A stretch of 64,000 nucleotides of DNA. Source: Dysgonomonadaceae bacterium PH5-43 (GTDB taxonomy: Bacteria > Bacteroidota > Bacteroidia > Bacteroidales > Azobacteroidaceae). Shown here piece after piece: positions 21,767-64,000 of this stretch. The stretch's first letter is position 1; each line of letters begins with the position of its first letter. The DNA lies in assembly GCA_029916745.1 (NCBI GenBank), contig JARXWK010000001.1:124001-188000 (forward strand), read 5' to 3'. A program made the translations under genes and the position numbers. The notes below the pieces were generated by a model that made no database searches, was not told the DNA's origin, and saw only the letters and a program-made list of their open reading frames with translations.

Positions 21767-21899
21767 GTTTCACACGGGTGAAACAGGTTGTTTCAGTTAG
21801 GTGAAACAAAGAGTTTCAGTTAGGTGAAACAAGTAGTTTCAGTTAAGTGAAACAAAGTGTTTCAGTAGTATGAAACAAATAGTTTCAACAGTATGAAAC
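21767..21899. repeat. 23-nt tandem palindrome array (6 units plus a degenerate one)
   Basis: Six units start every 23 nt at 21767, 21790, 21813, 21836, 21859 and 21882. Each is GTTTCA, six variable bases, TGAAAC, then a 5-nt linker. A decayed unit follows to about 21920. Every unit is its own short hairpin. It lies between the divergent ilv and trmB transcripts. The remaining gap, 21575-21766, shows nothing I recognise. Confidence 0.92.
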
Positions 21900-21988
21900 A
21901 GGTTATTTCATACCGATAAAATAAAAAGGCGTTTGCTAAGTACCAATTAACGTTTGTTAAAGTAATAAGGCGAATAAATATTTATCAT

Positions 21989-53394: not shown

Positions 53395-54155
53395 AAATTA
53401 TTTGTTTTTCTCTTTTTATACTCTTTTATATATATACCAGGTAATGAAGTTACAATTAAGCTACAACGTTTGATTTGTTTTTTAGGCTCACTAATTATAC
53501 GTTGCAACCATTCTAACTTAGCATTAATTACCCATTGTGGTGCACGTTTTTGGTCTTTCAAACCAGAATGAAACTTAAAAGCAGCTCCTACTCCTATCAA
53601 TATACCTCTATCAATATAAGGTGATAGTTTATACATAAAAAACTCTTGCTTGGGCATTCCGAGCGATACGAAAACTATATCTGGATTATAGTCTTTTATG
53701 TTTTCTGCTATTTTGGGGTAATCAAAGTCTTCAACATCTAAAAATGGTAAAGAGCCAAAATGCATATCCGACACGTTGTTGTCTATTTCAGACAAGCGTA
53801 TTTTAAGCGCATCTAATGTTTTCGGAGATGCTCCAATAAACATTATCTTATATTTCTTTTGAGATACAATATCCATAAGCAAATCGCTACCGCAATATTG
53901 TTCTCTTTGTATTTTATATATTGATTTTAAGTAGAGAGGAACCCAACCACTGTCGCAAACAGTTATTGAAGCATTGTCTAAAACAGTTTTAAGATTTTCA
54001 TTTTTATGACTCATAGCCAAGGTAACACCATCGGCTACACAAACATACCCTTTAGAGTTTGAGTTTAATATATTATCAATTTTTAATTTTACGTTTTCTC
54101 GTCCAAACGTATAAGTAATTCCGAAGAATTTTTCAGTCATAATCTTGGAGTCCAA
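53391..54155 (-). CDS. WecG/TagA/CpsF family glycosyltransferase
   Basis: 254 residues. Family signatures are VADGVTLAMSHKN (front), FVSLGMPKQEFFMYKL and GVGAAFKFHSGLKDQKRAPQWVINAKLEWLQRIISEPKKQIKR. It would add the second sugar to the lipid-linked monosaccharide made by the adjacent WecA-like enzyme. A start at 54140 (MTEKFFGITYTF) is also possible. Confidence 0.9.
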   Translation of the reverse strand: MDSKIMTEKFFGITYTFGRENVKLKIDNILNSNSKGYVCVADGVTLAMSHKNENLKTVLDNASITVCDSGWVPLYLKSIYKIQREQYCGSDLLMDIVSQKKYKIMFIGASPKTLDALKIRLSEIDNNVSDMHFGSLPFLDVEDFDYPKIAENIKDYNPDIVFVSLGMPKQEFFMYKLSPYIDRGILIGVGAAFKFHSGLKDQKRAPQWVINAKLEWLQRIISEPKKQIKRCSLIVTSLPGIYIKEYKKRKTNNL

Positions 54156-54170
54156 ATCTAATTTAGTTCA

Positions 54171-54178
54171 CAAAGGTA
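54171..54178 (-). promoter_or_regulatory. -7 box for wecG/wecA-like operon
   Basis: TACCTTTG on the minus strand, matching TAnnTTTG, 15 nt before the first start codon. Confidence 0.5.
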
Positions 54179-54240
54179 CTTCTTTTTTTAGATTTATATA
54201 GATTATCGAAAGAAAAAATTAGCATATGTATTTAAACTAC

Positions 54241-54285
54241 AAATGGAGTACGATTAATTACAAAGCAATTAAGCATACTCCATTT
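54241..54285 (-). terminator. Hairpin downstream of nrdJ
   Basis: AAATGGAGTA (54241-54250) pairs perfectly with TACTCCATTT (54276-54285), with an inner partial stem TTAATT/AATTAA. T-richness after it on the minus strand is modest, so terminator strength is uncertain. Confidence 0.55.
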
Positions 54286-54309
54286 GTTAATATATAGCGT
54301 TATTTTCTT

Positions 54310-56850
54310 TTATCCGCACTTAGAAGTTCCGCAAGCGGTGCAGGTTAAGCAACCTTCTTGATAAACCAAAGACTCTTGACCACAGTTGCCACATTTTTGT
54401 CCTTTTGCTTGAACTCCTTCTTGTATATATTTCTTTAATGCGCGTTCAACACCATTTTTCCAAGTATTGATAGATTCGTCATTAAGCTCTAAACCTCCAA
54501 CTAATTTCAATACTTGTTCAACAGGCATTGAGTATCTTAGCACTCCCGATATTAGTTTTGCATAGTTCCAATACTCTGGATTAAACTTATCAGACAGTCC
54601 TTCTATTGTTGTTTTATATCCTCGCTTGTTGGTGTATTGGAAGTCGTAACGTTTATTTCCAAATTCATCTACATTCTTTATTATAGTTCCTTTTGAAAGA
54701 TTTTTAGGTAAAAATATTCCCTCTTCTTCGTCATTGATACCTGTAAATATTTCGTAAGGACGACCGTTTAGTAAACCTACAAAGGCTATCCATTTCTCTT
54801 TATTGTTTTGGAATTTAACAATATCGGCATCTAACTCTCTCGGACGTTTAGCTACAATTACAGGAGGTTCAGGACATTCTACGCATTCTTTTTCTTTCTT
54901 AGAGTCGTTAGCGATTAAAACTCCACTACGCGAACCATCTCTATATACCGTACAGCCTTTACAGCCCGACTTCCAAGCCTCAACATAAAGGTTATTCACC
55001 AACTCTTCGTCTACATCATTAGGAAGATTGATAGTAACACTTATCGAATGGTCTACCCACTTTTGCACCCGTCCTTGCATTCTAACTTTTTGTAGCCAGT
55101 CTACATCATTAGACGTTGCTTTATAATAAGGAGATTTCTCTATCATTGCGTCTATTTCTTCAGACGAATACTTCTTAACTGTTGAGTATCCATTAGCCTC
55201 CATCCAAGTAACAAACTTGTGGTGAAACACTACATACTCTTCCCAAGAGTCGCCCACTTCATCTACAAAATCTACTTTTACAGAAGCATCGTTTGGATTA
55301 ACTTTTCTTCTTCTTTTATATACTGGTAAGAATACAGGCTCGATACCCGAAGTAGTTTGCGTCATCAAAGAAGTTGTTCCTGTAGGAGCTATTGTTAAAC
55401 AAGCTATATTTCTACGTCCGTATTTGCGCATCTCCTTAATTAGTTCTGGGTCTGCTTCTTTCAATCTATTTATAAACGGATTAGTTTCTTCTTTCTTAGC
55501 ATTGAATATTTCAAAAGCACCGCGTTCTTTAGCTAAACCTACAGAAGCACGATAAGCAGCCAATGTTAGTTCTTTTTGTATCTTTTCTGCAAAATCGGTA
55601 GCTTGTTCTGTTCCATAGCGATACCCCAAAGCAGCCAACATATCCCCTTCGGCAGTAATACCAACACCTGTTCTTCTTCCTAACAATGTTTTACTACGAA
55701 TTTTCTCCCATAAAACTCTTTCCACTGCTTTAACTTCTTCCAATTCGGGGTCGGTGTCAAGCTTACGAAGAATAGCATTAATCTTTTCAATCTCTAAGTC
55801 GATTATATCGTCCATTATTCTCTGAGCAATAGCAACGTGGCGTCTGAATAAATCAAAATCAAATTCAGCCCCAGGCTTAAATGGATTATTTACGTAAGAA
55901 TATAAGTTTATTGCCAATAGACGACAACTATCGTAAGGACATAAAGGTATTTCTCCACAAGGATTAGTAGAAACTGTAGTAAAACCTTGATCTCCATAAC
56001 AATCGGGAACCGACTCCTCTATAATAGTATCCCAGAATAACACTCCTGGTTCTGCCGACTTCCACGCATTATGAATTATTTTTTCCCAAAGGCTTACGGC
56101 ATCAATCTCTTTTGTGTATACAGGATTATCTGAATTTATAGGATATTGTTGAATAAAAGGTCTATTATTTATAACCGCCTCCATAAAATCATTAGTAATC
56201 TTAACAGACACATTAGCCCCTGTAACTTTACCTTCAGCCATTTTAGCATCGATAAAAGCTTCGGCATCGGGGTGTTTAACAGATACACTAAGCATCAAAG
56301 CTCCTCGACGACCATCTTGTGCTACTTCTCTTGTTGAATTAGAGTAGCGTTCCATAAAAGGCACTAACCCTGTAGAAGTTAAAGCTGAGTTTTTAACCGG
56401 CGAACCTTTAGGGCGAATATGAGAAAGGTCGTGCCCTACTCCACCTCTACGTTTCATTAACTGAACTTGCTCTTCATCTATTTTAATAATAGCACCGTAA
56501 GAGTCGGCAGGACCATCAAGTCCGATAACAAAACAATTCGACAACGAAGCTACTTGGTAGTTATTACCAATACCAGTCATCGGGCTTCCCTGAGGAACAA
56601 TATACCTAAAGTGATCGAATAGTTGAAAAAGTTCTTGCTCTGAAATCGGATTAGAATAATTCTTTTCTATTCTTCCTATTTCATTAGCTAAACGCCAGTG
56701 CATATCAGCTGGAGTTTTCTCGAAAATATTACCATAAGCATCTTTTAGAGCATACTTATTAACAAAGACTTTAGCAGCAAGCTCGTCGCCGTTAAAATAT
56801 TCAAGAGAAGCCTTATAGGCTTCATCGAAGGTATAGCTATTCTGTTTCAC
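54310..56850 (-). CDS. nrdJ: Class II (adenosylcobalamin-dependent) ribonucleoside reductase
   Basis: 846 residues. The barrel is recognisable by SLSNCFVIGLDGPADSYGAI, TNPCGEIPLCPYDSCRLLAINL, GRRTGVGITAEGDMLAALGYRYG and CLTIAPTGTTSLMTQTTSGIEPVF. The C-terminus carries redox/zinc-type cysteines (CGNCGQES...CLTCTACGTSKCG). It makes deoxyribonucleotides with B12 and needs no oxygen. No cobalamin-riboswitch signature was seen upstream. Confidence 0.95.
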   Translation of the reverse strand: MKQNSYTFDEAYKASLEYFNGDELAAKVFVNKYALKDAYGNIFEKTPADMHWRLANEIGRIEKNYSNPISEQELFQLFDHFRYIVPQGSPMTGIGNNYQVASLSNCFVIGLDGPADSYGAIIKIDEEQVQLMKRRGGVGHDLSHIRPKGSPVKNSALTSTGLVPFMERYSNSTREVAQDGRRGALMLSVSVKHPDAEAFIDAKMAEGKVTGANVSVKITNDFMEAVINNRPFIQQYPINSDNPVYTKEIDAVSLWEKIIHNAWKSAEPGVLFWDTIIEESVPDCYGDQGFTTVSTNPCGEIPLCPYDSCRLLAINLYSYVNNPFKPGAEFDFDLFRRHVAIAQRIMDDIIDLEIEKINAILRKLDTDPELEEVKAVERVLWEKIRSKTLLGRRTGVGITAEGDMLAALGYRYGTEQATDFAEKIQKELTLAAYRASVGLAKERGAFEIFNAKKEETNPFINRLKEADPELIKEMRKYGRRNIACLTIAPTGTTSLMTQTTSGIEPVFLPVYKRRRKVNPNDASVKVDFVDEVGDSWEEYVVFHHKFVTWMEANGYSTVKKYSSEEIDAMIEKSPYYKATSNDVDWLQKVRMQGRVQKWVDHSISVTINLPNDVDEELVNNLYVEAWKSGCKGCTVYRDGSRSGVLIANDSKKEKECVECPEPPVIVAKRPRELDADIVKFQNNKEKWIAFVGLLNGRPYEIFTGINDEEEGIFLPKNLSKGTIIKNVDEFGNKRYDFQYTNKRGYKTTIEGLSDKFNPEYWNYAKLISGVLRYSMPVEQVLKLVGGLELNDESINTWKNGVERALKKYIQEGVQAKGQKCGNCGQESLVYQEGCLTCTACGTSKCG

Positions 56851-57045
56851 CTCTTATTATTATTTTATGTTTATGTTATTATCTCTTTTTTTGAAAAAGG
56901 AATTGCAATATTAAAGAGAGATTTCCAAAGAAACAAATAAAAGAGAAAATTTATAGAAACATTGTTAATAAGTTTTTATTGCTATTTGGTAAAACAACAA
57001 TAATAAAAGGAGGAAAAGCTGTTATTAGATAGGCGAGTTGTTTCT
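56851..57045. other. A/T-rich leader region of nrdJ, nothing recognised
   Basis: About 195 bp between the nrdJ start and the tandem array. No TAnnTTTG box at a convincing position, no NrdR-type palindrome and no riboswitch was recognised. Confidence 0.5.
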
Positions 57046-57250
57046 TAGTAGACACCCCTTGTAGTTGTTACTAAATACCCCATCTCGCTCTTAGTAGATA
57101 GGCGAGCTGGTTCTTAGTAGAGACCCGATGCCGCTCTTTATAGAACCGCCCCGCCTTTATACTTAAGACACCCCGTCTTTCTACTAAGAGAGACCTCGCC
57201 TATCTAATAAGAGAGAGAAGGGGTCTCTACTAAGAGAGACGACCCTAAGT
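57046..57250. repeat. 23-nt tandem array with inverted halves (9 units)
   Basis: Units begin at about 57046, 57069, 57092, 57115, 57138, 57161, 57183, 57206 and 57229, so the period is 23 with one 22. Early units carry CTTAGTAGA; the last three carry the reverse complement, CTACTAAG. TTAGATAGGCGAG (57027-57039) and CTCGCCTATCTAA (57197-57209) are perfect inverted copies. The whole block could fold as one long hairpin. It lies between tyrA and nrdJ, both on the minus strand. Confidence 0.88.
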
Positions 57251-57275
57251 GAAGCTTTGCATTTTTAAGAGAAAT

Positions 57276-58049
57276 CTACTCTATTTTCTTTCTAACTGAT
57301 CGAAGAAATTCTTTCATTGCTTCAGAATCTTTTGATTCTATTATTTTCAAAAGTTCTGCAAGTTCTTTACGTATTTGTCCTAACTGTCCGGGAGTATGTG
57401 GATTAAAAAGTATTTCAGTAAGAAGGTAATCATCTTCCGACATCAGACCGCGTGCTATATCCATATGTTTTTTAAAGGTAGTACCCGGAGCTTCTTGATG
57501 TTTCATTATTGATGCAAATACAAGAGTTGACGCAAAAGGAATAGAAAGTGAGTAAGCCATAGTTTCGTCGTGTTCCTCAAAAGTATATTCGAAGATATTT
57601 AGTTTAAGAGAACTATATAAATCACGAAAGAATATCTTACCCATATGGTCGGAGTCTGATATTATTATTGCATTTTCAGTTGTTAGGTTACCCATATTAG
57701 CAAATGTAGGTCCAAACATTGGGTGAGAAGATACAAACGGACGCCCCTTACTCTTGTAATATTCGTGCAAACCTGTTTTCACCGATGCTATATCAGAGAT
57801 TATACAGTTTTCAGGAACATAAGGCAAAACCTGTTCGAACGCTGCAATAGTGTACTGAACTGTTGCGGCGTTAATTAATATCTCTGGTTTAAAATCTGCA
57901 ATCTCTTTAGGGTCGCTCATTCTTATACAATTATATGTAAACCTAAGTTTCTCAGGATTGTAGTCGAATATAGCCACTTCGTGTTCGAAGCTCAACACAT
58001 CGGCAAAGAAAGAGCCCATCTTTCCGGCTCCAAGTATTTGTATTTTCAT
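57276..58049 (-). CDS. tyrA: Prephenate dehydrogenase
   Basis: 257 residues. An N-terminal Rossmann motif (IQILGAGKMGSFFADVLS) leads to SDIASVKTGLHEYYKSKGRPFVSSHPMFGPT, typical of prephenate dehydrogenases. It makes 4-hydroxyphenylpyruvate for tyrosine. No ACT domain. Last gene of the aromatic operon; overlaps the preceding gene by 4 bp. Confidence 0.93.
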   Translation of the reverse strand: MKIQILGAGKMGSFFADVLSFEHEVAIFDYNPEKLRFTYNCIRMSDPKEIADFKPEILINAATVQYTIAAFEQVLPYVPENCIISDIASVKTGLHEYYKSKGRPFVSSHPMFGPTFANMGNLTTENAIIISDSDHMGKIFFRDLYSSLKLNIFEYTFEEHDETMAYSLSIPFASTLVFASIMKHQEAPGTTFKKHMDIARGLMSEDDYLLTEILFNPHTPGQLGQIRKELAELLKIIESKDSEAMKEFLRSVRKKIE

Positions 58050-59113
58050 TGATTCAGTACGTTTATTTGTTGCTTTATTGATTCTTCGTGAATAGATTCT
58101 AATATACTTTTCATAAAACCAGAAGAGAATCCTAAATCTTGAGCTTGCGCTATCCTTTTACCTAATATCTCATCGTAGCGTATAGTTTGAAGCACTGGCA
58201 TATTGTGTTCTTTTTTGTATTGTCCGATTTCTTGAGATATTCGCATACGTTTAGCCAATATAGATAAAAGTTCATCGTCTATTAAATCTATTTGATGACG
58301 AAGCTCCGTAAGGTTTTCTGTTGTTTGTTTTGTATCTCTTATAACTAAAAGATTCATAATGTAAGATAATACATCTGGGGTTATCTGCTGGTCTTTATCA
58401 CTTAAAGCGTTATCTGGCGAACAGTGAGATTCTATTATTAAACCTTCAAGATTTAAGTCCATAGCCTGTTGCGACAAAGGAGCTATTAGCTCTCTTTTAC
58501 CCCCTATATGACTTGGGTCTACTATTATAGGTAATTCGGGTATTCTTCTTTTTAGTTCAATAGGAATATGCCATTGAGGAAGATTTCTATAAATCTTTTT
58601 ATCATACGAACTAAACCCTCTATGTATAGCTCCAATTTTTTTAACACCTGCATTATAAATACGCTCTACAGCACCTATCCACAATTCTAAATCGGGATTT
58701 ACTGGATTCTTAATAAGTACAGGACCTGTAAATTTCAATTCTTTCAGAGCATCAGCAATCTCTTGCACAGCAAAAGGGTTTGCTGAAGTGCGAGCTCCAA
58801 TCCATAAAATATCTATTCCATGCTCTACTGCTTCAATAACGTGGTTTCTTGTTGCCACTTCGGTTGCAACATACATACCTGTTTCTTGCTTTACTTTCTG
58901 AAGCCAAGCTAATCCTTGAACTCCAATACCTTCAAAACCTCCTGGTTTTGTACGTGGTTTCCAAATACCCGCACGATAAACCTTAACACCATTGCGATGT
59001 AACTCTCTTGCGGTAGTTAATACCTGTTCTTCACTCTCAGCACTACACGGTCCTGCTATTAATAAAGGACGAACATCGTTCATTCCTGGCAGTAAAATTG
59101 ATTCTAAGTTCAT
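58046..59113 (-). CDS. Bifunctional DAHP synthase / chorismate mutase
   Basis: 355 residues. Residues 1 to about 260 are the AroA-beta type DAHP synthase (LIAGPCSAESEEQVLTTA, YRAGIWKPRTKPGGFEG, PIIVDPSHIGGKRELI). Residues about 265-350 are an AroQ chorismate mutase (ELRHQIDLIDDELLSILAKRMRISQEIGQYKKE). The fusion joins the first shikimate step to the Phe/Tyr branch point and probably mediates feedback. Placed between the aminotransferase and tyrA genes. Confidence 0.94.
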   Translation of the reverse strand: MNLESILLPGMNDVRPLLIAGPCSAESEEQVLTTARELHRNGVKVYRAGIWKPRTKPGGFEGIGVQGLAWLQKVKQETGMYVATEVATRNHVIEAVEHGIDILWIGARTSANPFAVQEIADALKELKFTGPVLIKNPVNPDLELWIGAVERIYNAGVKKIGAIHRGFSSYDKKIYRNLPQWHIPIELKRRIPELPIIVDPSHIGGKRELIAPLSQQAMDLNLEGLIIESHCSPDNALSDKDQQITPDVLSYIMNLLVIRDTKQTTENLTELRHQIDLIDDELLSILAKRMRISQEIGQYKKEHNMPVLQTIRYDEILGKRIAQAQDLGFSSGFMKSILESIHEESIKQQINVLNQ

Positions 59114-59132
59114 TATGTTTATATTTAATTTA

Positions 59133-60299
59133 TTATTTTTCTATTTTCTGTATTCTCTTCAAAGATTCCTTTAATTTCTCTTCACTGCAACAAAGAGAGA
59201 TTCTTATATATCTTTCGCCATTGCTACCAAATATAAATCCCGGAGTAAGAAACACATTAGCTTCATAAAGGATTTTATCTGCAAGCTCGCCACTATCTTT
59301 ATATTTATCTGGTATTCTTCCCCAAAGAAACATACCCGACTGTTTAGTATCGAAATAACAACCAAGATAATTCATTATTTCTTCGGCTACCACTCTGCGT
59401 TCTTTATATATTTTATTCATATTTTCGTACCAAGAAGCAGGAGCTTCAAGAGCTTTAGCAGCTGCAAGCATCATAGGTTTGAATTGTCCGCTATCTATAT
59501 TGCTCTTTACTTTAAGCACCCACTCTACAAACTGAGCATTAGATGCCAACATTGCTATTCTCCACCCCGGCATATTATGTGATTTACTTAAAGAATTAAG
59601 CTCTATACAAATATCTTTAGCTCCCTCAATCTCTAAGATACTCAAAGGATTATCGTTTAGAATAAAACTATAAGGATTATCATTACATATAACAATACTG
59701 TGTTTTTTGCCAAAAGCAACAAGTTTTGCTAATAGCTCTTTAGTTGCTTTAGCTCCCGTTGGCATATTAGGATAATTAACCCACATAAGTTTTACTTTAG
59801 ATAAGTCTAATTGTTCTAAAGCTTCGAAGTCTGGCTCCCAATTATTGTCTTCTTTTAAGTCGTAAGTTACAATTTTCGCCTCAACCAAATTACTTACCGA
59901 ACTATATGTTGGGTAACCCGGATTAGGGACAAGCACTTCATCTCCTGGGTTAAGAAAGGCAAGCGATATGTGCAGTATTCCTTCTTTAGAACCTATAAGC
60001 GGTTGTATTTCTGTTTTAGGATTTAAGTATACTTTATACCATTTATTATACCAATCGGCAAAAGCTTTTCGTAACTCAGGAATACCAACATAAGATTGAT
60101 AACCATGAGCTTTAGAGTCGTGTGCCGATTTACACAATTCTTCAATAGTTTCTTCAGAAGGAGGCAAATCGGGACTACCAACACCAAGATTAATAACATC
60201 TTTACCTGCTGCATTCATCTCTGCAACCTCTTTCAATTTCTTCGAGAAATAATATTCACTTACCGTTCTTAAACGATTTGCTGGTATAATATTTTGCAT
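59133..60299 (-). CDS. Class I/II aminotransferase (probable aromatic aminotransferase)
   Basis: 388 residues, PLP-dependent fold type I. GVGSPDLPPSEETIEEL and GYQSYVGIPELRKAFADWYNKWY lie at the front. NYPNMPTGAKATKELL and NSLSKSHNMPGWRIAMLASN (PLP Lys in SLSKSH) form the active site. The operon context suggests transamination of phenylpyruvate/hydroxyphenylpyruvate; substrate range is inferred. Confidence 0.9.
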   Translation of the reverse strand: MQNIIPANRLRTVSEYYFSKKLKEVAEMNAAGKDVINLGVGSPDLPPSEETIEELCKSAHDSKAHGYQSYVGIPELRKAFADWYNKWYKVYLNPKTEIQPLIGSKEGILHISLAFLNPGDEVLVPNPGYPTYSSVSNLVEAKIVTYDLKEDNNWEPDFEALEQLDLSKVKLMWVNYPNMPTGAKATKELLAKLVAFGKKHSIVICNDNPYSFILNDNPLSILEIEGAKDICIELNSLSKSHNMPGWRIAMLASNAQFVEWVLKVKSNIDSGQFKPMMLAAAKALEAPASWYENMNKIYKERRVVAEEIMNYLGCYFDTKQSGMFLWGRIPDKYKDSGELADKILYEANVFLTPGFIFGSNGERYIRISLCCSEEKLKESLKRIQKIEK

Positions 60300-60311
60300 A
60301 CTATCTGTATA

Positions 60312-61166
60312 TTAAACGTTTGTGGTGTTATTTTCTTTATACTCTCCTAATATCTTAAAATCTTTGGTTAGCGGTCGTACCGCATCTAAACCTTGCTTGT
60401 ATTTCATATAGTTACTAAAGGTAAGATCTACATAAAACAGATACTCCCATTCGCGACCCACTATTGGTAAAGACTGAATCTTAGTTAAATTAACATCGTA
60501 GAATGAGAGTATAGTTAAAACTTTCGACAGACTTCCCTCTGTGTGTGGTAAGGTAAATACTACAGAAGATTTATTTGCTGCCGTTTCATCAATAAGTTCT
60601 TCCGCCAACCAACGTTCTGCCAGCAATAGAAAACGTGTAAAGTTACGTTTATTAGTTTCTATTCCTTCTTCAAGAATATTAAGTCCATAAAGCTGAGCTG
60701 CATATTTACTGCACACAGCAGCATGACCAGTAAGTTTTTCTTCTGCAATCTTTTTAGCACTTAAAGCAGTATCTTCTCCTTCCACAACCTTTACGTTGGG
60801 GAGCGTGCTAATATATTCGCCACACTGCATAAGTGCTATTGGGTGAGAATTAATTTCAGTTATCGTATCAAGAGTTTCACCCGGTAGGGCTACCAAACAA
60901 TGTGATATTCTTATCTTCTTTTCGCCTATTACAAGAAAATCGCTTTCTCTTATAAGTTCGTGATTTTGCAATAAACTTCCAGCTATAGTATTCTCTATCG
61001 CCATAAGACCAATAATATTAGGATCTTTCTTTATTACAGAAATAACATCTTTGAATTTCTGACATGGAAGTATTTCTATTTCTTCACCATACTCTTGTCT
61101 AAAGTAATCTCGAGCTGCTATTTCGTGATAAGCCCCCTCTACCCCTTGAATTGCTACTGTTTTCAT
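60312..61166 (-). CDS. pheA: Prephenate dehydratase
   Basis: 284 residues from ATG at 61166 (MKTVAIQGVEGAYHEIAARDYF). The longer in-frame start at 61196 lies inside the attenuator terminator. Type II periplasmic-binding-like fold with GLMAIENTIAGSLLQNHELI; the C-terminal ACT domain (HTEGSLSKVLTILSFYDVNLTKIQSLP) gives Phe feedback. The usual ESRP of the ACT domain reads QSLP. First structural gene of the aromatic operon, preceded by a Phe/Tyr leader peptide. Confidence 0.94.
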   Translation of the reverse strand: MKTVAIQGVEGAYHEIAARDYFRQEYGEEIEILPCQKFKDVISVIKKDPNIIGLMAIENTIAGSLLQNHELIRESDFLVIGEKKIRISHCLVALPGETLDTITEINSHPIALMQCGEYISTLPNVKVVEGEDTALSAKKIAEEKLTGHAAVCSKYAAQLYGLNILEEGIETNKRNFTRFLLLAERWLAEELIDETAANKSSVVFTLPHTEGSLSKVLTILSFYDVNLTKIQSLPIVGREWEYLFYVDLTFSNYMKYKQGLDAVRPLTKDFKILGEYKENNTTNV

Positions 61167-61178
61167 TTGATTATATTC

Positions 61179-61209
61179 AAAAAAAAATCCCGTCATTTCT
61201 GACAGGATT
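61179..61209 (-). terminator. pheA attenuator terminator
   Basis: On the minus strand AATCCTGTCA (61209-61200), loop GAAA, TGACGGGATT (61195-61186), then a run of nine Ts (61187-61179). This is a 10-bp stem with one G-U and a GNRA loop, 13 bp before the pheA ATG. AATCCTGTC is also a perfect complement of GACAGGATT at 61272-61264, giving an antiterminator. Confidence 0.92.
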
Positions 61210-61255
61210 CTATATTTATTTAATATTCTATTTACGTTTTAAGCGTTCATTTTCA

Positions 61256-61330
61256 TCATACAAAATCCTGTCTTACTTTTTTGCTAAAGTAAAAATAATA
61301 AAAGAAATATGTAAAATAAAAATTGTTCAC
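61256..61330 (-). CDS. Phe/Tyr leader peptide (pheA attenuator)
   Basis: 24-codon ORF starting at GTG and ending TGA. Residues 4-15 read FYFTYFFYYFYF; overall 7 Phe and 5 Tyr. The transcript should begin about 22 nt upstream. The antiterminator strand GACAGGATT (61272-61264) is coded within residues 19-23. A ribosome reaching the stop would mask it and let the terminator form; stalling on the Phe/Tyr run would leave it free. No in-frame ATG exists before the upstream stop, so GTG is the likely start. No Shine-Dalgarno sequence. Confidence 0.87.
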   Translation of the reverse strand: MNNFYFTYFFYYFYFSKKVRQDFV

Positions 61331-61356
61331 TTTCGTGTTATGTATGTATTACGGTG

Positions 61357-61385
61357 CAAATGTAATTATTTTTTTTCTAATACAA
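61357..61385 (-). promoter_or_regulatory. Promoter of the aromatic operon
   Basis: TTG (61385-61383), 18-nt spacer, TACATTTG (61364-61357) on the minus strand. Spacing is 1 nt below the usual 19-21. Transcript start near 61352. Confidence 0.65.
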
Positions 61386-61403
61386 TCTAAAACTAAAAAA
61401 AAA

Positions 61404-63053
61404 TTACACTACTTCTATACCTTGTGCTTTCAACAAATCTAAAGCAATATCTTTCAGTTTATATTTTTGTATCTTACCGCTACCCGTAAGTGGATATTCT
61501 TCTACAAAAAATACGTATTTAGGTATTTTATGACGCGCTATTTGTCCTCTACAAAAATCTTTAACTTCTTCTGCTGTTAACGTTGCTCCTTCTTGCAATA
61601 TTATAAAGGCTCCAACTTCTTCTCCATATTTATTCGATGGAATACCTGCCACCTGAATATCTTTTACGCCTTTAAGTTGATAAAGATACTCTTCTACCTC
61701 GCGAGGATAAATATTTTCTCCACCTCTAATAATCATATCTTTTATACGACCTGTAATCGTGTAGTTACCATTAGAATCGCGCACTCCTAAATCGCCAGAG
61801 TGAAGGAAACCATCTTTATCTATAACTTCAGCCGTAGCTTCTGGATTTTTATAATATCCTTTCATCACATTATATCCACGACAACAAACTTCACCTTGTA
61901 CATTATCTGGCAAATGCTCTCCTGTTTCAGGGTCGATGATTGCTACTTCTGTAAACTCATAAGGACGACCAACAGTGTTACATCGAACCTCAAAAGAATC
62001 ATCAATACGAGTTTGTGTCATACCAGGCGCAGTTTCTGTTAATCCATATACACTTGTAATCTGAATATACATTTTTTCATTAACCTGACGCATTAGCTCT
62101 ATCGGACAAAGAGAACCTGCCATAATTCCAGTTCGCAAACAAGTAAGGTCGAACATATCAAACATAGGGTGATTTAGTTCGGCTATAAACATAGTTGGCA
62201 CTCCATAAAGTGCTGTGCATCGTTCTTTATGTATCGAAGCTAAAACTACCAACGGATCAAATCTTTCTACCATTACTTGCGTACACCCGTGAGTAAGCAC
62301 ATTCATTGAAGCCAAAACTACACCAAAACAGTGAAAAAGCGGAGTACAAACACACAAGCTATCTTCTTGTGTAAAGTTCATATGTTCGCCTGTTAAATAT
62401 CCATTATTAACAATATTGTGATGTGTAAGCATTACTCCTTTAGGAAAACCTGTTGTTCCTGACGTATATTGCATATTCACAACATCATAACAAGAAACCT
62501 TTGCTTTAGCTTCATTAAGTTTTTCATTACTAATATTATCTCCAAGCAAAAGAAGCTCAGCGGTATTGTACATACCTCTATATTTCTCTTGACCAATAAA
62601 AACAACATTTTTAAGAAATGGGAATCTGTCACTCTTAGCGTACCCTCTTTGTGTAGTTTTTAATTCAGGAAGCATATTATACACCATATCTATATAGCTA
62701 CCATCAAACACACCTTCGGTAATACAAAGAGTATGAATATCAGAGTCTTCCATTAGATATTCGAGTTCGTGTTGTTTGTAGTTAGTATTTACCGTTACAG
62801 CAACAGCTCCTATCTTTGCTGCAGCATATAAAAAGGTTAGCCAGTCTGGTACATTTGTTGCCCAAATGCCGATATGCGTTCCTTTAGTTACACCTATCGA
62901 CATAAGACCTTTAGACATATTATTTACTCTTTCATCTAATTGTTTCCATGTAAAGCGTAAATCACGATCGGAATAAACTACATATTCTTTATCAGGAGTA
63001 GTTTCAGCCCAGTATTCGAGCCACTGCCCCATTGTTCTTTCTGTTAATTGCAT
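61404..63053 (-). CDS. AMP-binding acyl-CoA ligase (medium/long-chain fatty acid type)
   Basis: 549 residues of the ANL superfamily. Adenylation motifs: [23 protein letters not shown] (P-loop), [54 protein letters not shown], and the C-terminal catalytic Lys in [13 protein letters not shown]. It activates a carboxylic acid to its CoA thioester. It follows the XRE/cupin regulator by 14 bp, a pairing common in Bacteroidales. Confidence 0.93.
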
Positions 63054-63067
63054 ACTTTCAGGCTTAA

Positions 63068-63646
63068 TTATATTGGAGTATATACTACGGCTAATATTTT
63101 AGCACCTTGTTCGTCTGCAGCATGAACGTGGTGAGCCACAATAGAATCGTAATAAATGCTATCGCCTTCCTCTAAAATATACACATCTTTACCATACGAA
63201 ATCTCAATAACTCCTTCCATACAGAATATAAACTCTTCGCCTTCGTGAGAAGATAGAATAAAGTCTACACCTTCTTCTTTTGGCTCTATACCGATAATAA
63301 AAGGCTCCATGTGACGACCCGACTTAGCCGACGACAAAGAATAATAATCCATATGAGTTCTCGATGATTTTTGATTGGTAGAAAAGCTTACTGTTTCTTT
63401 ATATTTTTCTTTTCTTGAAACAACTGGTCCTAATGAAGATTGGTCATCAAGGAATGTTCCTAATCTTACACCCAACACTCGAGCTATTTTGATAAGAGGA
63501 GCTAAAGAAGGGAAATCTTTATTTTCTTCTATTCTCTTTATTTGATCAATACTTAATCCAGATCTTTCTGATACGTCTTCTATCGAAATTGATTTAGTTT
63601 CTCTTAAATTCTTTATTCTACTACCTACTAATATTTCCGAACCCAT
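63068..63646 (-). CDS. XRE-family regulator with cupin domain
   Basis: 192 residues. The N-terminal helix-turn-helix is [31 protein letters not shown] (residues 10-41), and the C-terminal cupin (about 115-190) includes [18 protein letters not shown] and [17 protein letters not shown]. It probably senses a small ligand and controls the acyl-CoA ligase gene beside it; the ligand is unknown. Confidence 0.92.
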
Positions 63647-63674
63647 ATATTTGCATTTATAATATTTCAGGCAG

Positions 63675-63704
63675 CAAAAGTAATAATTTATTTGTAATTA
63701 ACAA
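63675..63704 (-). promoter_or_regulatory. Promoter of the XRE/cupin-ligase operon
   Basis: TTG (63704-63702), 19-nt spacer, TACTTTTG (63682-63675) on the minus strand: a close match to the Bacteroidota consensus, 29 nt before the start at 63646. Confidence 0.7.
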
Positions 63705-63751
63705 TGTATTAATTCAATTTAAAACAAGAGAGAGTGGATTGTTCTTATTAT

Positions 63752-64000
63752 TTAATTAGCAAAACCAATATTTTTCAAATCAGTCGCTAATTTTGTTGAA
63801 AATAATTCAGCTCCTACTTTTTTCATATGTTGGGAGTTATAAAAATAATCTTTGTTATAACATATAGAATCTGATGAATAATCTAAAAATGGGATATTAT
63901 ATTTATCAGACAGATTCTTATAGAAGTCTACTGCTACATCTTTGTTTTGCAAAAGCTCCTCAAGCTCATAATATTGCGGAGACCAAACTAAAGCAATGTT
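63752..64000 (-). CDS. C-terminal part of an SGNH-hydrolase-like protein (cut by window edge)
   Basis: The open frame runs off the right edge, so only the last 82 residues are visible (beginning NIALVWSPQYYELEELLQNKD). FLDYSSDSICYNKDYFYNSQHMKKVGAELFSTKLATDL resembles the final block of SGNH/DltD-like acyl-modifying proteins (DxxH...N..GA..F). Here the block reads NSQH, so the catalytic Asp position is altered or shifted. Partner genes such as an MBOAT acyltransferase would lie outside the window. Confidence 0.65.
   Translation of the reverse strand, partial: NIALVWSPQYYELEELLQNKDVAVDFYKNLSDKYNIPFLDYSSDSICYNKDYFYNSQHMKKVGAELFSTKLATDLKNIGFAN

Follow-up and report, generated by a model that had tools for sequence, protein, structure and literature searches.

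The region upstream of pheA on the minus strand of a 64,000-nucleotide stretch of the Dysgonomonadaceae bacterium PH5-43 genome (the window, i.e., the whole stretch of DNA that was analyzed) is in all likelihood a ribosome-mediated attenuator of transcription with charged tRNA-Phe and tRNA-Tyr as its signals, as judged from sequence and modeling. It very probably turns on the genes for phenylalanine and tyrosine synthesis when these amino acids are short. The same reading had been put forward in an initial annotation of this DNA, and it was supported by the anatomy of the region, its conservation, the joint changes of its RNA strands, the geometry of the ribosome, and sister leaders in the same genome. 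We infer the stalling, the termination, and the sensing of both amino acids; there are also good grounds to infer joint control of the operon by Phe and Tyr, because the codons are mixed and the operon makes both products.

Anatomy of the region upstream of pheA

The leader region lies between the stop codon of an acyl-CoA ligase gene (61404) and the ATG of pheA (61166), and its features are listed in Table 1. The promoter box, the GTG-started ORF of 24 codons, the complementary strand, and the terminator with a GNRA loop and a T9 tract, all described initially as standing before pheA, were found in the sequence. A promoter, assigned by consensus, is followed downstream by a short ORF rich in codons that match the products of the operon, and an intrinsic terminator stands between this ORF and pheA, with its arms at 61211-61200 and 61195-61184 and the T9 tract at 61187-61179 of the minus strand. 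The strand GACAGGATT (61272-61264) is perfectly complementary to AATCCTGTC (61209-61201). The box is of the TAnnTTTG type, which is given as the promoter consensus of Bacteroidota in the available text of PMC9723704. The annotation had counted 12 aromatic codons out of 24, and this number stood, with 11 of them among codons 4-15 and the twelfth at Phe23; but the string quoted for them, FYFTYFFYYFYF, contains 11 aromatics and one Thr. The GTG start was also correct, and it is exceptional, since 78 of the 79 aligned leaders described below begin with ATG and GTG was found in the window alone. No Shine-Dalgarno sequence was found at the leader, again as first reported, and this is usual for Bacteroidetes according to the available text of PMC6847099; the same text gives A at -3 as favorable for translation starts of F. 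johnsoniae, and this base was present in only 40 of the 79 leaders, the window among them. An in-frame ATG at 61196, beside the terminator loop, gives a longest pheA ORF of 294 rather than 284 amino acids, so automatic annotation may choose the 294-aa start.

Table 1. Coordinates of the pheA leader, its operon, and the ilvD leader within the window.
Feature	Position	Strand	Basis
Putative promoter -7 box TACATTTG, Bacteroidota TAnnTTTG type	61357..61364	-	Sequence; promoter by consensus only
Leader peptide ORF, GTG 61330 to TGA, MNNFYFTYFFYYFYFSKKVRQDFV	61256..61330	-	ORF translation; start aligns with the ATG of relatives
Strand 1, which overlaps the Phe-Thr-Tyr codons and forms the 5' side of the protector pairing (1:2)	61303..61332	-	Minimum-free-energy fold
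Small hairpin, last Tyr/Phe codons (61294-61286) paired with AAGTAAGA (61279-61271)	61271..61294	-	Fold
Strand 2, GACAGGATT, antiterminator 5' strand, inside the ORF in the window	61264..61272	-	Sequence, covariation
3' side of the 1:2 pairing, across the stop codon	61241..61269	-	Fold, relatives
Strand 3, AATCCTGTC, antiterminator 3' strand and terminator 5' arm	61201..61209	-	Sequence, covariation
Intrinsic terminator, strands 3:4, GAAA loop, T9 tract	61179..61211	-	Sequence, fold, 79 leaders
pheA, prephenate dehydratase	60312..61166	-	Pfam PF00800, E 5.9e-52
Class I/II aminotransferase	59133..60299	-	Pfam PF00155
Fused DAHP synthase/chorismate mutase	58046..59113	-	Pfam PF00793 and PF01817
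tyrA, prephenate dehydrogenase (N-terminal domain match)	57276..58049	-	Pfam PF02153, E 5.7e-9
ilvD promoter box TACCTTTG	from 21574	-	Sequence
ilvD Ile/Leu/Val-rich leader MSINNILHNNTVLVNVILLVIKG	21543-21472	-	Sequence
ilvD leader strand 2 GAGAGAGGTT	21469-21460	-	Sequence
ilvD leader terminator	21427-21395	-	Sequence, fold

The aromatic run of the leader ORF is not a product of chance. When both strands of the 64 kb were scanned for 12-codon segments with at least 10 Phe/Tyr codons, only one was detected, and this corresponded to the pheA leader. No run of this kind was present in 20 first-order Markov copies of the 64-kb window; for the 238-nt intergenic stretch, none of 2000 Markov copies had a run with 11 or more. 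Moreover, the leader folded better than its dinucleotide shuffles (z -4.13), and none of the 200 was as good. In the predicted fold, the terminator was accompanied by a small hairpin by GACAGGATT and by a 1:2 pairing, long and imperfect, between the codon run and the sequence around the stop codon; this 1:2 pairing and the small hairpin had been missed in the initial annotation. The small hairpin, which adjoins strand 2, was also present in the aligned relatives (by eye, uncounted). The Rfam search of positions 54000-64000 of the window gave three matches, each unrelated and short of its gathering score, and nine relatives' and sister loci gave none; a known Rfam element was rejected, as no family passed its gathering score in these 10 kb or nine loci.

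Conservation and spread of the leader

Two sets of pheA loci were compared. The first kept the best 80 of 572 loci, and the second comprised 30 loci from the genus of the window, that of the window included, which were taken from 43 matching genomes out of 58. Among the best 80 of 572, the closest pheA relatives were Candidatus Symbiothrix, Candidatus Azobacteroides, and Dysgonamonadaceae, which are termite symbionts, followed by Parabacteroides and Tannerella. At least 140 nt of upstream sequence was available in 107 of the 110 loci, and a 12-codon segment with at least eight Phe/Tyr codons was present in 89 of these and absent in 18. After removal of nine duplicates and of L034, whose start is off the contig, an alignment of 79 leaders (A1) was obtained, among them those of Parabacteroides distasonis and P. 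goldsteinii.

The length of the coding run changed by whole codons: from codon 2 onward, the common run measured 41 nt in 73 and 44 nt in five of 78 leaders, a difference of one codon, and the additional codons found at the end of this run were whole codons too (by eye). In the counts per codon, which leave out L068 and in which inserted codons shift the numbering of a few leaders, Phe or Tyr was found at codons 10, 12, and 13 in all 78 leaders, at codon 11 in 77, at codon 14 in 76, and at codon 15 in 77. Both amino acids were interchanged at codons 9-11; codon 9 was Tyr in 30, Phe in 25, and Ser in 23 leaders, and codon 11 was Tyr in 41, Phe in 36, and Ser in one. The whole-codon length changes and the Phe/Tyr swaps indicate that the aromatic run is read as codons. 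Past this run, the reading frame and the stop position vary among relatives. With the C of the strand 2 core as the reference point and the stop codon placed by its first base, the stop was 5-12 nt before the core in 25 of the 79 leaders and 12 or 14 nt after it in 47, and in both main positions (72 of 79) a terminating ribosome would thus cover strand 2. The other stops were found 15 nt after the core in one leader, 18 nt in two, and at least 23 nt in four (L052, L008, L010, and L093, the last at 40 nt); the interval from 12 nt before to 18 nt after the core included 75 of the 79.

The pairing of the strands was then counted over the 79 leaders. In helix 3:4, 97.9% of cells were paired, with 58 double-changed cells compared with 19.7 in shuffles; the corresponding values were 91.3%, 30, and 9.8 for helix 2:3, and 82.7%, 50, and 23.4 for helix 1:2. 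The covariation score exceeded all 500 shuffles for the three helices alike, a comparison in which the shuffles overstate significance because the aligned sequences are related. Columns 88/168, in helix 2:3, were G-C in 51, A-U in 27, and G-U in one of the 79 leaders, and columns 168/184, in helix 3:4, were C-G in 51, U-A in 14, and U-G in 14. Since column 168 is common to both helices, strands 2, 3, and 4 change together (A-U-A/G versus G-C-G), and this joint change is predicted by mutually exclusive pairing. An antiterminator that shares the 5' arm of the terminator is kept by covariation at columns 88/168/184, few pairs being variable. Columns 90/166 of helix 2:3 were A-U in 72, G-U in four, and G-C in three, and the pair at columns 94/162 of the same helix failed in 48 of 79. 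The numbers of double-changed pairs and of pair types were within the shuffles both for helix 1:2 (82 and 80 of 500 as high, respectively) and for helix 2:3 (124 of 500 in each case); the 2:3 signal therefore comes from two pairs, chiefly that at columns 88/168. Sliding the partner strand lowered all helix measures, and helix 1:2 slid by -2 still had 74.1% of cells paired; the register counted for this helix is the one that suits the Parabacteroides type, and the count is lowered by the type closest to the window, in which a bulge of one base is needed (by eye). The automatic consensus fold of the 79-leader alignment gave the terminator hairpin alone, with no 2:3 and no 1:2, and thus these two helices rest on structures that were named first and then counted.

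Such an alignment of relatives had been proposed as a check in the initial annotation, with frameshifts and the loss of the Phe/Tyr codons or of the alternative pairing as the outcomes that would speak against attenuation. The 79 leaders kept their Phe/Tyr codons and their terminator as well as the alternative pairing, with compensatory changes; however, the frame of the tail changed, the stop codon was not conserved, and some genomes of the same genus had no leader. Among the 29 assessable same-genus loci (one of the 30, with 43 nt upstream, was left out), 22 had the leader, six were without it, and one (L098) had a shortened run. By eye, L011 has kept the terminator and its leader is gone; L017, L018, and L033 have a promoter box directly 5' of the pheA start and no leader; and nothing recognizable was observed upstream of pheA in L105 and L110, from genomes of 1.2 and 1.0 Mb. 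That some genomes of the genus have no leader, these two included, offers a natural comparison.

A covariance model built on the pheA leaders, with a threshold of E 0.01, matched 145 of 294 sampled genomes of the order and 98 of 177 genera, and the count of 145 genomes takes in trp leaders and false matches near the threshold. Within the 30 best-scoring loci, pheA was in the fetched flank of 26; at L135 the leader was before an aminotransferase and a DAHP synthase gene (named by eye) instead of pheA, and no pheA was seen in the stretches fetched for L129, L133, and L140, which were shorter. Twenty weaker or repeated matches included 13 with pheA, six with trp genes, and one (L215, E 0.0015) with neither, indicating that the model yields some false matches near the threshold.

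For a class-wide sample covering the order and the class, 60 regions upstream of pheA were drawn from 49 of 71 other genomes matched (mostly better matches) and 11 of 12 genomes of the order outside the genus. A leader, here taken as at least seven Phe/Tyr/Trp codons in 12, was found in 44 of the 60 regions; among the 60 reverse complements there was one, and each of ten Markov runs gave between 0 and 4 out of 60. A terminator was behind the leader in 42 of the 44, and the end of the ORF paired significantly with a terminator arm in 35 of these 42, with seven short of p 0.05 in the duplex test. Elsewhere in the class, the leaders retained their Phe/Tyr-rich composition with a different sequence. 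In family f39, the leader was absent in the eight genomes examined. Two complete modules of Phe/Tyr leader and terminator, in series before pheA, were observed at L201, L202, L203, L204, L173, L191, and L055, i.e., at six of the seven candidate loci examined plus L055, and probably also at L059; L205, fetched as a tandem candidate, had one leader only. These tandem modules may serve to broaden the range over which the operon is controlled.

Predicted switch and rival explanations

In the proposed mechanism, RNA polymerase would start just below TACATTTG and a ribosome would begin the leader without a Shine-Dalgarno sequence. When Phe- or Tyr-tRNA is scarce, the ribosome would stall within the aromatic run and open the 1:2 pairing, and the freed GACAGGATT would pair with AATCCTGTC before the 3' arm of the terminator is made, allowing read-through into pheA and the aminotransferase, DAHP synthase/chorismate mutase, and tyrA genes. 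When both amino acids are plentiful, the ribosome at the stop codon would cover GACAGGATT; AATCCTGTC would then join its 3' partner, and transcription would stop in the T9 tract. For such a device to work, the leading ribosome must keep up with RNA polymerase, so transcription-translation coupling is testable in this phylum by reporters. If the reading is true, ribosome and polymerase would be closely timed on Bacteroidota leaders.

The geometry of this switch was analyzed with partition functions, modeling a ribosome footprint of 11 nt beyond the A-site codon along with other reaches, five in all. With the ribosome placed mid-run or on the last aromatic codon (11-nt reach), 2:3 formed before strand 4 in 79 of 79 leaders, and with the ribosome on the stop codon it formed in three (L008, L010, and L052). 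The terminator formed in the 79 full-length RNAs when the ribosome was on the stop codon or when there was none. A mid-run stall freed strand 2 in all 79 leaders at the five reaches, and a stall on the last aromatic codon did so in 77 at 12 nt, 51 at 14 nt, and 22 at 16 nt, indicating that the last-codon stall works only with a footprint of about 12 nt or less downstream. In geometric terms, a ribosome on the stop codon masked strand 2 in 76 of the 79 leaders and a stalled one left it free in 79, the last codon being footprint-dependent. With no ribosome, 2:3 was favored before strand 4 in 60 of the 79, the window included (0.999 in the window). The protector helix 1:2 is largely conserved (82.7% of cells), yet the ribosome-free equilibrium prefers 2:3 in these 60, and thus 1:2 need not protect at equilibrium.

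It is unlikely that the attenuator senses just one of the two amino acids, with the codons for the other as bystanders. The codon kinds are mixed throughout, with a minimum of four Phe and three Tyr in every one of the 78 leaders, and because each leader holds both kinds, the comparison cannot separate Phe from Tyr sensing; however, the operon makes both amino acids, and the stalls predicted mid-run and at the end of the run give the same switch.

Ligand-sensing arrest peptides such as TnaC exist, and in a leader of that sort the nascent peptide, not tRNA charging, would stall the ribosome, with free Phe or Tyr as the ligand. The strong conservation of Thr7 (69 of 78), Tyr8 (77 of 78), and the Phe-Tyr-Phe ending would suit such a peptide, but the Phe/Tyr swaps at codons 9-11, a tail that differs even in frame, class-wide leaders that keep composition rather than sequence, and sister leaders that carry the amino acid of their own operon make it very improbable. 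Moreover, the conserved ACATAT (Thr-Tyr) participates in the 1:2 pairing. Arrest as the main idea was rejected on the codon swaps and frame changes among the leaders.

The tail of the ORF is less conserved than the RNA strands, as would be expected if the leader were a ribosome-independent riboswitch or bound by a protein (a T-box or similar) and its ORF fortuitous. There is little chance of this: the whole-codon length changes and the Phe/Tyr swaps point to a run read as codons, a Phe/Tyr-rich ORF recurs class-wide with different sequence, and the Rfam search, which covered 10 kb of the window and nine loci of relatives and sister leaders, gave no family above its threshold. Finally, an ordinary terminator of the acyl-CoA ligase gene next to a chance ORF, suggested by the position between this gene and pheA, has a negligible probability and was rejected, given the promoter box that separates the leader from the upstream stop (61404), an ORF far beyond chance, and comparative data that contradict it, as strand 2 co-varies with the terminator strands 3 and 4.

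Known attenuators and sister leaders

The E. coli pheA leader (PheL) has a Phe-rich leader peptide, a logic of strands 1, 2, 3, and 4, and an intrinsic terminator before pheA, and the leader in the window resembles it by anatomy in these elements. In contrast to PheL, the window leader has mixed Phe and Tyr codons and no Shine-Dalgarno sequence, its strand 2 is inside the ORF (after the stop codon in other relatives), and the operon adds DAHP synthase, chorismate mutase, and tyrA. Lopatovskaya et al. 2010 is said to be a comparative study of attenuation that may already list Bacteroidetes. The mechanism is textbook, and a structured element before pheA has already been reported for Flavobacterium psychrophilum, as stated in the available text of PMC9723704. 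That text speaks of strong clues that amino-acid operons of this organism are preceded by leader-peptide attenuators, and describes 5' elements before pheA and hisG that are conserved in Flavobacteriaceae and have no Rfam hits (PMC9723704). The gene and the taxonomic class are the same as in the window, whereas no leader peptide, alternative strands, or spread beyond Flavobacteriaceae is given in the available text of that paper (PMC9723704). For Bacteroides thetaiotaomicron, sORFs in long 5' UTRs are described as resembling attenuation leader peptides in the available text of PMC7366714, and the term 'pheA' is absent from its main text. In the available text of the open-licence literature, we did not find the complete anatomy, the joint changes of three strands, either of the stop positions as such, how widely the leader is spread, or its tandem copies. 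The points of interest are the breadth of the leader in a group without Shine-Dalgarno sequences and the tandem copies in some relatives.

Sister leaders were found in the same genome. Inside the window, an Ile/Leu/Val-rich leader (Table 1) precedes the genes from ilvD through the acetolactate synthase large and small subunits to ilvC. The leader MSLLTNTFYWWRLFFIKRVS, with Trp-Trp, stands before a trpB-like gene (PF00291) directly 5' of trpE (PF04715), and MNNTNAHTHHHHGE, with five His, before hisG (PF01634). For the ilvD, trp, and hisG leaders, the folds showed a terminator and the shorter transcripts a competing pairing. No leader was found in about 320 nt upstream of the thrA-like gene of this genome. 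Attenuation by a translating ribosome would account for all these observations, and without it the match between codons and operon in four leaders of one genome is hard to explain. The trp, his, and ilv operons of proteobacteria have leader-peptide attenuators with operon-matching codons, and their counterparts in this genome look alike in plan; the latter differ in belonging to another phylum, in having no Shine-Dalgarno sequence, and in their Bacteroidota promoter boxes. Attenuation is probably general for the amino-acid operons of Bacteroidia (pheA, trp, his, and ilv), with two stacked Phe/Tyr modules in some lineages. If so, Bacteroidota would have a concrete and widely shared way of sensing aromatic amino acids, with four codon-matched leaders in one genome. 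These leader peptides are too short for routine annotation, and therefore a whole regulatory layer is easily missed. The sister ilvD leader in the window and the spread of the pheA leader in relatives go beyond the reading of the initial annotation.

At least nine Ile/Leu/Val codons in 14, a threshold set without a chance control, were found before ilvD at 10 of 25 loci with that of the window included, i.e., at nine of the 24 others, and the ilvD leader was absent from most of the same-genus ilvD loci examined. Leaders with Trp-Trp or Trp-Trp-Trp were found before trpB-like genes or trpE at L206, L207, L208, L209, L212, and L213, in six other genomes; these six loci were among the weaker matches of the covariance model built on the pheA leaders. 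At L206, L207, and L212, the complementary strand of the trp leader seems to pair with the loop and the 3' arm of the terminator, not with its 5' arm (by eye). Upstream of the ilv promoter, positions 21767-21927 of the window hold tandem 23-nt units, most of them with GTTTCA and TGAAAC as inverted halves.
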